Source of the DNA: an uncultured Isosphaeraceae bacterium
GTDB taxonomy: Bacteria; Planctomycetota; Planctomycetia; Isosphaerales; Isosphaeraceae
DNA: 64,000 bases
Assembly (NCBI GenBank): GCA_945957605.1
Contig: CAMFLR010000001.1
Coordinates: 496,001-560,000, forward strand
Reading direction: 5' to 3'
The notes beneath the pieces are model-generated. The model worked only from the letters and a program-made list of their open reading frames with translations, was not told the origin of the DNA and did not search any database. A program made the translations under genes and the position numbers. Positions 49,164 through 55,032 of the stretch are shown piece by piece. Position 1 is the stretch's first letter; the number at the start of each line of letters is the position of its first letter.

Positions 49164-51863
49164 TCACTCGGGGGTGAGCGTGAACGTCACCTCTTCGGTC
49201 TTTCCTTCTGTGAGCGTCATTGTGCGAGTGGCCGGTGCGAATCCTGCGGCTTTCACGCTCACTGTGACTTCTCGATCCGGCGCGAGTTGACTTGTGCGCC
49301 ACTTGCCGTCGGCTTGCTCTTCGAAGCTCACGTCAGACTGACCGTCACCCTTGATGACGTATTTCCCTTCCGCCGGTCCGTCCTGTGTCACGTAGTCGAC
49401 GCTTGGCCGGAACCCCTTAACTTGCTTTCCATCCTTCGTCACCGCGTTGATCAAAATGATCGGCGCGACGTAGCGAATGATTTCGACCTCGCTCGAATCG
49501 CGATCCAGCGAGCCGAGGTGAATTGTCCTCGCGTGATGCAGCTCACCGTCTTTTTTGGTGCGGAACATCAAAGATGAGTGTTCATTGGTGACAAGCATGA
49601 TCTGCGCCTCTTGAAGCCCCTTGGGCACAAGGACACGATACAGGCCGTCGGGCGTCGAGGCACATTGCGCATTCCAGTCGACCTTATTGATCTCGCCCGA
49701 GAGCCAGAATTCGTGTCCCGATCGTTTCTCGCGTTTGCTGTTGTAAAGCTGCGCGGTGAAGACGATGTGGGGAACCGCCTTCAACTCGATCGACGGTGAT
49801 TTTTCCGCGTCTTTGAGTGTGACCTTGGTCGGCATGAATGTCGCGGGCAAGGGACGACGCGCTGGGTCATGTGCTCCTTCGCGTGTTGAGGGATCCCAGC
49901 CGCGATCGGTCGGAGTGACGCTGTATGCCCCTTCGGGAAGAGGGCGGAATTCAAAGCTGCCGTCATCCTTCGTAATCGTTGCGCGATGAATCTGCCCCGC
50001 CACCCACTGCGGTATCAAACTCTCGTCGCCTGTCCCCTTCTCAACCTGGTTGGCCTCGACAAAAATCCCCGCGACCGGCTTATCGTTTTCGTCGACGGCT
50101 TTACCTCGTAAGACAACGCCTTTCTTGAGCGTGAAGGTACCAAGGTCGCCACGCTGGTCGGGCTTGAGTCCGTGCTGTTCTGGCGCGAAGTCCTGGGGAA
50201 GAATCCAGTAACCTGCCGGCCCTTGTGGATGGATTACCAGGTGAAAACGCCCCTGCGCGTCGGTCTTGGTCTCGCTGAATCGGCCGGAGTTTGTGGGATC
50301 CTTGTCGGGCGACGAGTAAGCTCCGACTTTTACATCCGCGACCGGTTTGCCATCCGGCGATTTGACGATCCCTTCGATCGCCTTTCCGGGATCAATTTCG
50401 AGTTTCTCAAAGAACGGCCGCTCGCCTAGCGTGATGTTCTTGAGGATCATCCCATAGCTGTAGCCGCCGAAGTATTGAATGTGATTGGCGGAATCAACAT
50501 GAAGCGTGATATAGAGGCGGGGAAGTGCATTTTCTTCTGGCGTGATCGAGAATTCGTAGGCACCGTCGGCGCCCGAGGTTTGTGGAACTTCACGCAAGGT
50601 TCGAGGTTCGTTCGTCTTGGCGTCGCCGCTTGTTGAAATCTCGACGACGACCTTCGCGCCGGCGACAGGCTTTCCCGTCCCCTTTTCAACGAGGTGGCAT
50701 TTCCAAACACGGTCGGCTTCGGCCTTTTTGGCCTCTTGCTTCGCGACGGGTTCGTCGGGAGTTGTGGCAGCGTTGAGACGCAGGCTCGAGGCCGCGACGA
50801 TGACACCACATGCAATTGAAGCGGCCGTCAGGCTCCAGATCGTCCGACAGCGCAACGCCAGTGGTTCACGATTCTGTACAAGCATCGTCACCCTCCGGGA
50901 GAGGTTGGACCGCCGGTCGCTAATCCCCAGCGCAGGGAGATAGCGGCCCGAGGTTTGAAAGCGGGCGAGACGTACGAGATGGGATGCATAGTCTTCGGGC
51001 GATCCGCTCGCCGCGGCGCGGGCGTCGGCGAGAAAATCCTGGCAGAGTCGAAGCTGACGCCGCAGCCACCAGAACAGCGGCTGATAGAACAACAGAGCGC
51101 TCGCCAGACAGGTGAAACTCCAAGCCCACGAGTCCCGTCGTTCGACGTGCGACCATTCATGAGCCAGCATATATCGAATCAACTCGCGATCGGCTTCGGC
51201 GTCGAGCCCGCATGGCAGGAGAATGACGGGACGCAGAAACGTGTAGGTCGCGGGAAGCGCGATGCGACTGCTTTCGAGAAGTCGCACCCGCCCTCCGGCA
51301 CGTCCTGCGACTTCGTTCAAGATCGCACAAAGCTCGCTGGAAGCCGGCGTGGCGTTTCTCGTAAGCAACCAGAGTGCGATCTGGCCAAAGAGCCACCAGG
51401 CGATGAACCCCACGATGATTGCGCCATATCCGACAAGAATGAGCGACGCAAACGAAAGCGTTTTTCCCTGTGGCTGCTCGATGATTGCAGGAGAAGAACG
51501 CGATTCCGCGGCGGGTGGCATCTTTGCCGGCTGAGCTCGATTCGCAATCGGGCGAACCGGATTGGCGGTTGTTTCCGTCGAACGTTCAATTGCTTGCGGC
51601 TGCGGCATACTGCTGGAAGCCGCAGACACAAACTGCCGCCGCGCAGGCTCCGCAGGAAGTACGTCGGCCGACCAGTGGGGAATCGCGGGCAGCAACGAAA
51701 GCCATGGAGCGATCAGCGCACCGATGAGGGTGAGTAAGATCACCTGCACACGATGCACTGGCTGGCGGCAAAGGCGTGTGGCGAGCGAGCCCGCACTCAC
51801 AACGAGAAGGACGGCAAACGCTGAGGTGACAAGCTGCGGAACGGTGCCAAACTGGTCGATCAT
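49164..51863 (-). CDS. BlaR1-like M56 metallopeptidase with carboxypeptidase-regulatory-like domains
   Basis: The 899-residue protein has N-terminal membrane helices (about residues 10-60 and 138-165) and the M56 zinc motif HEWSH at 235-239. A further helix lies at about 345-365. Instead of the penicillin-binding sensor domain of BlaR1/MecR1, it carries a long periplasmic part with carboxypeptidase-regulatory/CnaB-like strands (GTGKPVAGAKVVVEIS, SPDGKPVADVKVGAYSS, DENDKPVAGIFVEA, TVSVKAAGFAPATRTMTL). It follows the BlaI-like gene by 1 base, so it is the sensor-protease of that pair. The signal sensed is unknown. Confidence 0.9.
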   Translation of the reverse strand: MIDQFGTVPQLVTSAFAVLLVVSAGSLATRLCRQPVHRVQVILLTLIGALIAPWLSLLPAIPHWSADVLPAEPARRQFVSAASSSMPQPQAIERSTETTANPVRPIANRAQPAKMPPAAESRSSPAIIEQPQGKTLSFASLILVGYGAIIVGFIAWWLFGQIALWLLTRNATPASSELCAILNEVAGRAGGRVRLLESSRIALPATYTFLRPVILLPCGLDAEADRELIRYMLAHEWSHVERRDSWAWSFTCLASALLFYQPLFWWLRRQLRLCQDFLADARAAASGSPEDYASHLVRLARFQTSGRYLPALGISDRRSNLSRRVTMLVQNREPLALRCRTIWSLTAASIACGVIVAASSLRLNAATTPDEPVAKQEAKKAEADRVWKCHLVEKGTGKPVAGAKVVVEISTSGDAKTNEPRTLREVPQTSGADGAYEFSITPEENALPRLYITLHVDSANHIQYFGGYSYGMILKNITLGERPFFEKLEIDPGKAIEGIVKSPDGKPVADVKVGAYSSPDKDPTNSGRFSETKTDAQGRFHLVIHPQGPAGYWILPQDFAPEQHGLKPDQRGDLGTFTLKKGVVLRGKAVDENDKPVAGIFVEANQVEKGTGDESLIPQWVAGQIHRATITKDDGSFEFRPLPEGAYSVTPTDRGWDPSTREGAHDPARRPLPATFMPTKVTLKDAEKSPSIELKAVPHIVFTAQLYNSKREKRSGHEFWLSGEINKVDWNAQCASTPDGLYRVLVPKGLQEAQIMLVTNEHSSLMFRTKKDGELHHARTIHLGSLDRDSSEVEIIRYVAPIILINAVTKDGKQVKGFRPSVDYVTQDGPAEGKYVIKGDGQSDVSFEEQADGKWRTSQLAPDREVTVSVKAAGFAPATRTMTLTEGKTEEVTFTLTPE

Positions 51864-51864
51864 T

Positions 51865-52263
51865 TCAGCCCTCCTTGTTCGTTGAGTCGCCTTCAGATGC
51901 CTTTCGTTTTCGCGCTGATGCGATGAGACGTTCGAGCCCGCGCAGCTCGGCCTCGCTCACGTCCTTGGCTTGCAACAGGCTCAGAACAGCCTGGTCGATC
52001 GCGCCGTCGAACACCTTGTGCAACATGCGCGAGGTGACGCGATCGCGGCTGTACGTCGGCTCGTAGACGAACACGCGGCCGTTTGCTGAATGTCGCACCA
52101 GCCCCTTCTCTTCCATGATCCGGAGCAAGGTTTGCACTGTGTTGAACGCGAGTTCGTCGTCGGGGCACATCTTGCGATGCACCTCGCGAACGGTGCCCGA
52201 CCCTATTTCCCAGAGCGCCTTGAGCACATCAAGCTCGCGCGGACTCGGATCTGTCTCCGACAC
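51865..52263 (-). CDS. BlaI/MecI/CopY-family repressor
   Basis: The 132-residue winged-helix repressor has the family pattern PSPRELDVLKALWEIGSGTV, AFNTVQTLLRIMEEKGLVRH and the YEPTYSRD wing. A C-terminal dimer helix follows (RGLERLIASARKR). Such proteins repress their own operon until the partner M56 protease cleaves or inactivates them. A near-perfect palindrome lies 20 bases before the start (see the operator entry). It is the first gene of the operon with the BlaR1-like gene. Confidence 0.93.
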   Translation of the reverse strand: MSETDPSPRELDVLKALWEIGSGTVREVHRKMCPDDELAFNTVQTLLRIMEEKGLVRHSANGRVFVYEPTYSRDRVTSRMLHKVFDGAIDQAVLSLLQAKDVSEAELRGLERLIASARKRKASEGDSTNKEG

Positions 52264-54028: not shown

Positions 54029-54062
54029 GCGCGGGACCGGTTTCGCGCCGGTCCCGCCTTTC
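54029..54062 (+). terminator. Intrinsic terminator of the sialate esterase gene
   Basis: GCGGGACCGG and CCGGTCCCGC form a 10-bp perfect stem with a 7-base loop, followed by CTTTCG. Confidence 0.83.
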
Positions 54063-54093
54063 GTTGAATTGGATTTCCGAAGGATCTCGACTC

Positions 54094-55032
54094 ATGAAGT
54101 TGGTGTCGAAGTTTGCCGGATGGATCGTCCTTTTTGTCGCATCTCATGTCGTTGCTCAGGATCAGCAAGCCAAGCAAACGACTTCAAAGGAACCCGCCCC
54201 ACAAAAGCTACAAATCGCAAGGATTGAGAACACGTATAAACTCAGCTCCAATCTCTACAGCGGCGGCGACCCGCATGGTCTCGAAGCATTAACGGCTCTG
54301 CAGAAGTTGGGCATCAAGACAATCATTAGCGTCGATGGCGTTGCACCTGATATTGAAGCGGCGCGCAAGCTCGGCATGCGTTATGTCCACCTGCCGATCG
54401 GTTACGACGGCGTGCCTCGCTCGCAAGCCGTGAGAATGGTGAAGGCAGTGAAATCGCTTCCCGGCCCGATTTATGTGCACTGCCACCACGGAACGCATCG
54501 CGGACCAGCGGCTGCCGCGGTTTGCGAGATTGCGGTCGAAGGATGGACAAACGAGCGCGCGGTTGACTGGCTAAAAATCGCCGGAACGTCTGCGGATTAT
54601 CTTGGCCTGTACACATCGGCACGCGAATTTACTGTGCCTACCGCTGATGAACTCGCTCGAGCGGGAGATACATTTCCCGAGCAATCGAAAGTTGCCGACT
54701 TGGTTGAGTTGATGGTGAAGGTTGACGAGCGTTGGGATCGTTTGAAGGCGGCTCAAAAGTTGGGATTTCCGGCGGCAAATCAGAATCGCGACGATGCGCT
54801 TCAACTCGTGGAATTATTCCGCGAAAGCGCGCGGCTTCCTGAATCGAAGGAAAAGGGATCGGCATTTCAGCGGGAGATGGCGACAGCAGAACGCGCCGCG
54901 ATTGGCTTCCATGAGTCGCTAACCAAAACGGATGGTCCGAAAGTGGTAGACTCCTCCAAGACGCTCGAAGCGGCCTTTAACGCAGTCGGGAAAAGCTGCA
55001 AGGCCTGCCACGCGCGGTATAGGGATAATTGA
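54094..55032 (+). CDS. Periplasmic tyrosine-phosphatase-like domain joined to a cytochrome c'-like haem domain
   Basis: The 312-residue protein has a signal peptide (MKLVSKFAGWIVLFVASHVVAQ). Residues about 40-180 resemble a dual-specificity/DUF442-type phosphatase: SNLYSGGDP, IKTIISVDG, YVHLPIGYDG and the P-loop HCHHGTHRG with Cys130 and Arg136 in a CX5R frame. Residues about 200-312 form a helix bundle that ends in SCKACHARYRD, a CxxCH haem site (Cys302, Cys305, His306) placed near the C terminus as in cytochrome c'. AAGGAT precedes the ATG. The combination suggests a haem-sensed or redox-linked periplasmic phosphatase; activity is not shown. Confidence 0.8.
   Translation: MKLVSKFAGWIVLFVASHVVAQDQQAKQTTSKEPAPQKLQIARIENTYKLSSNLYSGGDPHGLEALTALQKLGIKTIISVDGVAPDIEAARKLGMRYVHLPIGYDGVPRSQAVRMVKAVKSLPGPIYVHCHHGTHRGPAAAAVCEIAVEGWTNERAVDWLKIAGTSADYLGLYTSAREFTVPTADELARAGDTFPEQSKVADLVELMVKVDERWDRLKAAQKLGFPAANQNRDDALQLVELFRESARLPESKEKGSAFQREMATAERAAIGFHESLTKTDGPKVVDSSKTLEAAFNAVGKSCKACHARYRDN

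Follow-up and report, generated by a model that had tools for sequence, protein, structure and literature searches.

A single gene in the genome of an uncultured Isosphaeraceae bacterium encodes a polypeptide in which a domain of predicted DSP/PTP fold is joined to a C-terminal class II c-type cytochrome domain, and the same combination recurs in a family of planctomycete and verrucomicrobial proteins marked by the signature HC[HFY]HGxHR[GSA], an invariant methionine (Met207), and a CxxCH motif. Each of the two domains comes from a known superfamily; no description of a phosphatase-cytochrome fusion, of its signature, or of its planctomycete and verrucomicrobial spread was found in the open-access literature, and we know of no cysteine phosphatase with a built-in haem. 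The function tentatively proposed here, which is given somewhat less than an even chance, is that of a periplasmic protein, either a cysteine phosphatase or a phosphate binder, that is coupled to redox state: the haem would exchange electrons with Cys130 or gate this residue.

The Fusion Gene and Its Surroundings

The fusion gene occupies positions 54094..55032 (forward strand, stop codon included) of the window, that is, the whole stretch of 64,000 nucleotides that was analysed, and was delimited by the reading of the open reading frame (ORF) and by its homologues. Translation from the ATG start codon gives a product of 312 aa, with a CX5R loop at Cys130/Arg136 and a CKACH motif at residues 302-306 of the same ORF, exactly as the initial annotation had claimed. 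A Shine-Dalgarno-like AAGGA was read directly from the sequence 9 nt 5' of the ATG (54080..54084, forward strand). Between the upstream SASA-esterase gene and the fusion gene lies a terminator-like hairpin (54031..54057, forward strand) with an 11-pair stem, nine of whose pairs are G-C, followed by a T-rich tail, which was detected by a consensus-based scan whose sites are no more frequent than in shuffled sequences. Given this hairpin, the fusion gene probably forms its own transcription unit.

The first 21 residues (54094..54156, forward strand) have, by inspection, the character of a signal peptide, with cleavage after VVA, which agrees with the exported polypeptide first proposed for this locus and strongly implies that the protein leaves the cytoplasm. 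A lipobox-like motif takes the place of such a signal peptide in 41 of the 100 homologues collected, as judged by a simple pattern.

The neighbouring genes in the window, assigned by Pfam to a SASA esterase, a 3-keto-disaccharide hydrolase, and an FGE-sulfatase, offer no functional clue. PADLOC matched nothing, and no NCBIfam model reached its cut-off for the fusion protein. Further upstream, on the reverse strand (49164-52263), a BlaI/MecI-like repressor gene precedes a BlaR1/MecR1-like M56 peptidase gene, an assignment made by eye, and the peptidase gene carries a long C-terminal extension.

The Phosphatase Domain

Residues 37-190 (54202..54663, forward strand) form a mixed alpha/beta domain in the AlphaFold2 model of the full protein, which was built from an alignment of 61 homologues and has a mean pLDDT of 91.4 and a pTM of 0.84. 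This pTM, reached despite a disordered N-terminus, suggests that the two domains of the modelled protein have a defined arrangement. The DSP fold of the model was recognised by both VIA-align and Foldseek, and the best structural match is TpbA (4r0s_A; Z 17.8, rmsd 2.7 Å, 154 residues in VIA-align), which is also the best solved match of the domain in Foldseek (E 1.1e-6), followed among the structural matches by VHZ, SsoPTP, the PFA-DSPs, and others. The sequence points in the same direction, given that phmmer searches of the solved structures matched residues 31-164 to TpbA (2m3v, E 5e-11; 4r0s, E 8.5e-11), while Pfam returned weak matches to several DSP families for the N-terminal part.

The models of phosphatase-like sulfurtransferases remained below their curated cut-offs (TIGR01244, 18.9 vs 85.85 bits; Blh, 18.6 vs 625), as did the DUF442 model PF04273 (22.5 bits, cut-off 26.1), and the DUF442 structure 3gxh aligned with the domain at Z 15.3. 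The fusion protein is classed here by its predicted DSP fold and not as a proven classical phosphatase, since the window member lacks the Ser/Thr that follows the P-loop Arg. Three other DSP genes were found in the genome, all of them without a cytochrome domain.

In the P-loop (H129-C130-H-H-G-T-H-R136; 54478..54501, forward strand), HCx5R is present in all 95 of the aligned homologues, and H129, C130, H132, G133, and R136 are invariant. The invariance of H129, C130, G133, and R136 in 95/95 sequences indicates a functional oxyanion-binding Cys loop under selection. The invariant or near-invariant positions of the DSP part also include G57, P60, V80, D81, P101, Y104, G164, G171, and L172. Asp81 (in SVDG; 54334..54336, forward strand) is kept in 94 of the 95 homologues and is a candidate acid/base or Arg-orienting residue.

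The residues that usually assist catalysis are far less constant. A Ser or Thr after the P-loop Arg is typical of cysteine phosphatases, though not universal, and the DSP-only relatives recovered in the verrucomicrobial search have a Thr there (HCxHGxDRTG). The window member has Gly137 at this R+1 position (54502..54504, forward strand), where the family has G in 67 sequences, S in 25, and A in three, so that a hydroxyl is missing from 70/95. Asp105 (54406..54408, forward strand) aligns with the probable general acid of TpbA, Asp105, whose loop reads 131-HCKHGNNR-138 (PMC4409338), and the 29 homologues (of 95) that lack this Asp have N, S, A, G, H, K, or R instead; both the Asp and the R+1 hydroxyl are missing from 23. 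In the human PRL phosphatases, an Ala after the P-loop Arg leads to a long-lived phosphocysteine; in PRL1, once the Asp is gone along with the R+1 hydroxyl, this intermediate persists for weeks (PMC12192612).

Given that the R+1 hydroxyl and Asp105 are unconserved, a pattern reminiscent of the slow PRL phosphatases, what the fusion family conserves is probably not a rapid hydrolysis of the classical kind, and phosphatase turnover may not be the family function at all. Either this is the case, or Asp81 or the P-loop histidines would replace the missing catalytic helpers. That Cys130 and Arg136 never vary speaks, in turn, for the retention of a covalent or anion-binding chemistry.

TpbA (PA3885 of Pseudomonas aeruginosa; PDB 2m3v, 4r0s, 4r0t) shares its fold, its export, and the HCxHGxxR loop, and has its Asp105 in the same place as most family members, but is a single-domain protein, whereas the fusion family combines an HCHHGxHR[GSA] loop with a c-type cytochrome. 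The PRLs (PTP4A) share the DSP fold (Z about 14.5) and, with most members of the family, the lack of a Ser/Thr after the P-loop Arg, and this analogy suggests a long-lived phosphocysteine in the fusion family as well. Unlike the family, however, the PRLs are eukaryotic, have no haem, and keep the Asp of the acidic loop, which is absent from many of the fusion proteins.

The Cytochrome Domain

The C-terminal part of the protein (residues 200-312; 54691..55029, forward strand) is assigned to the class II c-type cytochromes by Pfam, by its AlphaFold2 model, and by its structural match to NaxLS. The top Pfam match of the protein is PF01322 (Cytochrom_C_2, cytochrome c'), which covers residues 206-310 with an E of 1.3e-6, over the curated cut-off, and phmmer also matched this part to cytochromes c' among the solved structures. 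Four long helices are modelled in the full protein (202-222, 229-247, 256-279, and 287-309), forming a four-helix bundle with the CxxCH in the last helix, and the domain modelled alone reaches a pLDDT of 93.3. The best structural matches are the anammox NaxLS cytochromes 6r6o and 6r6m (Z 14.2-14.3, rmsd 1.7-1.9 Å), with cytochromes c' next (Z 12-14) and cytochrome cb562 behind them (Z 12.0). For a bundle of helices, such Z values are moderate, and the Foldseek E values are weak (0.012 at best); the assignment is upheld by its agreement with the sequence, through PF01322 and CxxCH.

The agreement of phmmer (TpbA), PF01322, and AlphaFold2 bears out the pairing of a phosphatase-like and a haem domain that was first proposed from the letters of the sequence, and both the DSP fold and the four-helix bundle are present in the model, with Cys130 and CxxCH invariant in the orthologues. 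The CKACH motif (54997..55011, forward strand) is the predicted haem c attachment site, with His306 as the proximal ligand, and CxxCH is found in all 92 of the homologues that extend to the C-terminus. The (near-)invariant positions of this domain in the set of 95 are M207, C302, C305, H306, and R310. It is strongly implied that the haem is bound covalently, and its attachment is made plausible by three PF01578 cytochrome-assembly genes in the genome.

The predicted distal ligand is Met207 (54712..54714, forward strand), which is invariant (93/93) and lies within the initial turns of helix 1 of the model. In the aligned ranges of the structures, it corresponds to residue 32 of NaxLS and to Met7 of cytochrome b562, a register in which residue 5 of the model corresponds to residue 25 of 6r6o, and residue 6 to residue 1 of cb562 3nmi, with no prior gap assumed. 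The structural ranges were used here because a profile-profile alignment with cytochrome c' (hhalign) covered the C-terminal half alone, and the MAFFT alignment of helix 1 with cytochrome c' was unreliable. The deposited NaxLS structures C32G and C32M/C101M carry mutations at this residue 32; Cys32 is the distal haem ligand of NaxLS, and Met7 is the known axial Met of cytochrome b562.

A Met also occupies the distal position in the stand-alone class II cytochromes of the same genome (L124, L127), in one proteobacterial cytochrome c' that was compared, and in the cytochrome c' of Rhodospirillum molischianum. A Met at this position, as in some cytochromes c', is no proof of ligation, and it is displaceable. 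Even so, the invariance of Met207, in register with the distal ligands of b562 and NaxLS, favours a six-coordinate His306/Met207 haem, which is considered rather likely, and an electron-transfer haem of this type is more likely than the open, gas-binding haem of a cytochrome c'. The earlier description of the domain as cytochrome c'-like stands for the fold and the place of the CxxCH, in agreement with PF01322; the invariant Met207 speaks against a cytochrome c' in the strict sense, with a five-coordinate, gas-binding haem and an open distal site.

NaxLS (Kusta0087/0088 of anammox planctomycetes; PDB 6r6m, 6r6o, 6r6n) has the same four-helix bundle, C-terminal CxxCH, and aligned distal position, but is a small, soluble class II cytochrome c heterodimer with Cys32, whereas the fusion family has a Met there and an additional phosphatase domain. 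The cytochromes c' (PF01322) share the bundle and the CxxCH near the C-terminus, and lack the combination of an invariant distal Met with a phosphatase domain.

Distribution and Evolution of the Family

Approximately 70 fusion loci were found among the genomes of 84,980 species, and these belong to Planctomycetota, Verrucomicrobiota, or metagenome-assembled genomes, while the ten weakest matches of the scan are proteobacterial stand-alone cytochromes c' or a short DSP-only match. The fusion is present over its full span in 67 of the 199 planctomycete genomes sampled, and is patchy in the Isosphaeraceae (approximately 10 of 25 genomes, that of the window included). In 195 sampled genomes of the phylum of the verrucomicrobial relative, the one full-length fusion is the reference itself. 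In the maximum-likelihood tree, the verrucomicrobial copies fall in at least two places among the planctomycete copies, which may reflect transfer or paralogy. Copies of the Isosphaeraceae type are also found on two plasmids, pPL62-1 (L149) and pOJF2_1 (L150), which share the replicon cluster rep_cluster_171, and these copies are annotated as "hypothetical protein" and "dual specificity protein phosphatase".

The occurrence of the full-length fusion in independent planctomycete and verrucomicrobial genomes rules out an assembly chimera or a frameshift artefact. The HCx5R and CxxCH motifs co-occur in every complete homologue examined, which implies that the two domains would be functionally coupled. 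In one verrucomicrobial locus (L145; G234:C30:41500-45500), a divergent second ORF is suggested by matches that cover residues 35-90 and 193-311 but leave out the P-loop region, and a reading of this region for CxxCH ORFs of more than 90 aa found none.

Gene Neighbourhoods in the Relatives

No conserved operon partner emerged from ORF clustering or when 113 neighbouring ORFs were scanned with Pfam. The fusion gene of Rhodopirellula rubra, R. sallentina, and Aporhodopirellula aestuarii lies directly 3' of a SCO1-COX2-COX1-COX3-COX4 operon, on the same strand (L059:1980-8867, L061:1404-8789, and L073:1830-8780), and in plasmid pPL62-1, a SCO/cox cluster lies 2 kb from the fusion gene, on the opposite strand. 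These links to oxidase genes are restricted to two lineages among approximately 112 loci (1.68 Mb). Approximately 0.6 would be expected by chance, based on the three COX1 genes of the 8.8-Mb window genome and on the assumption that the other genomes resemble it in COX1 density, so that the link is near chance overall and suggestive only.

Other genes were observed in individual lineages. On pPL62-1, a DUF3365 gene, like the SCO/cox cluster, lies at most about 8 kb from the fusion gene. One planctomycete lineage has a conserved gene for a 2Fe-2S ferredoxin-like protein of 119 aa just upstream of the fusion gene (L042:6326-6682, L044:7361-7717, L074:7381-7737), and a relative of this gene is present at L040:12646-12999.

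Possible Functions

In the mechanism proposed here, a TpbA-like phosphatase domain would be fixed in position against a class II cytochrome with a His306/Met207 haem, which would accept electrons from, or donate them to, the respiratory carriers of the periplasm. The redox state of the haem would then determine whether Cys130 is present as a thiolate, in oxidised form, or as phosphocysteine, or else which shape the P-loop takes, and the phosphate on a periplasmic target would be removed or retained according to the redox state of the respiratory chain. That many members lack the customary helper residues suggests a slow phosphoenzyme acting as a switch, as opposed to a fast hydrolase. Oxidation of the catalytic Cys is known to inactivate cysteine phosphatases. 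The phosphatase activity, the flow of electrons to Cys130, the kind of substrate, and the switching that we infer here are favoured by the nature of the closest solved DSP match, TpbA, which is an exported or periplasmic phosphatase, and by the oxidase genes that adjoin the fusion gene in some lineages; against them stand the lack of conservation of the general acid, the R+1 hydroxyl, and the gene neighbourhood, as well as the near-chance frequency of the oxidase links. The more specific proposal that Cys130 is itself a redox centre, with the Cys of an oxyanion loop swapping electrons with a covalent His/Met haem of the same polypeptide, is regarded as doubtful.

The same poorly conserved helpers of phosphate hydrolysis, together with the weak TIGR01244 and Blh matches, far under their cut-offs, and the similarity to the DUF442 structure, could also indicate an oxidoreductase that uses the phosphatase fold, in which Cys130 and the anion loop would act on a sulfur or other oxyanion (thiosulfate, sulfite, or persulfide, for example) and the haem would pass electrons to the respiratory chain or receive them from it. 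His/Met cytochromes are, as a rule, electron carriers, and the oxidase operons next to the fusion gene in two lineages would suit such a role, but the top match in both sequence and structure, TpbA, is a true phosphatase and no sulfurtransferase, and sulfur-oxidation genes do not recur beside the fusion gene in the Pfam scan of its neighbours, which leaves this explanation unlikely. The loss of the general acid and the R+1 hydroxyl would equally suit a DSP domain that acts as a binding module, either a pseudophosphatase or a dock for phosphate or phosphopeptides, placing an electron-transfer cytochrome near its partner, in the way that the PRL phosphatases bind CNNM transporters (PMC12192612). 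This seems quite improbable, given that the nucleophile Cys130 and Arg136, which would be superfluous in a pure dock, are invariant.

The gas-controlled phosphatase suggested in the initial annotation would require a five-coordinate, cytochrome c'-like haem, at which the binding of NO or CO toggles the activity. The top Pfam match is that of the cytochromes c', which are also among the best matches of the fold, and it has been suggested that NaxLS, the nearest fold, holds NO (PMC7438415). The invariant Met207, however, aligned with the ligands of b562 and NaxLS, predicts a closed sixth site and points to a His/Met six-coordinate haem, and gas-related genes do not recur in the Pfam scan of the neighbours, so that gas control is not supported as stated and seems very unlikely. 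The alternative offered in the initial annotation, a protein of phosphatase fold with a part in electron transfer, may still hold.

A haem-phosphatase fusion so widespread and so strictly conserved in planctomycetes would tie respiratory electron flow directly to phosphate signalling in the periplasm, or else represent a redox chemistry new to the phosphatase fold. Were Cys130 itself the redox centre, this would represent either a new oxidoreductase chemistry of the PTP fold or a respiratory chain that exerts direct electrical control over the dephosphorylation of proteins. The fusion family provides a clean, testable target for these ideas, with Cys130, Met207, and the CxxCH motif as mutational handles.
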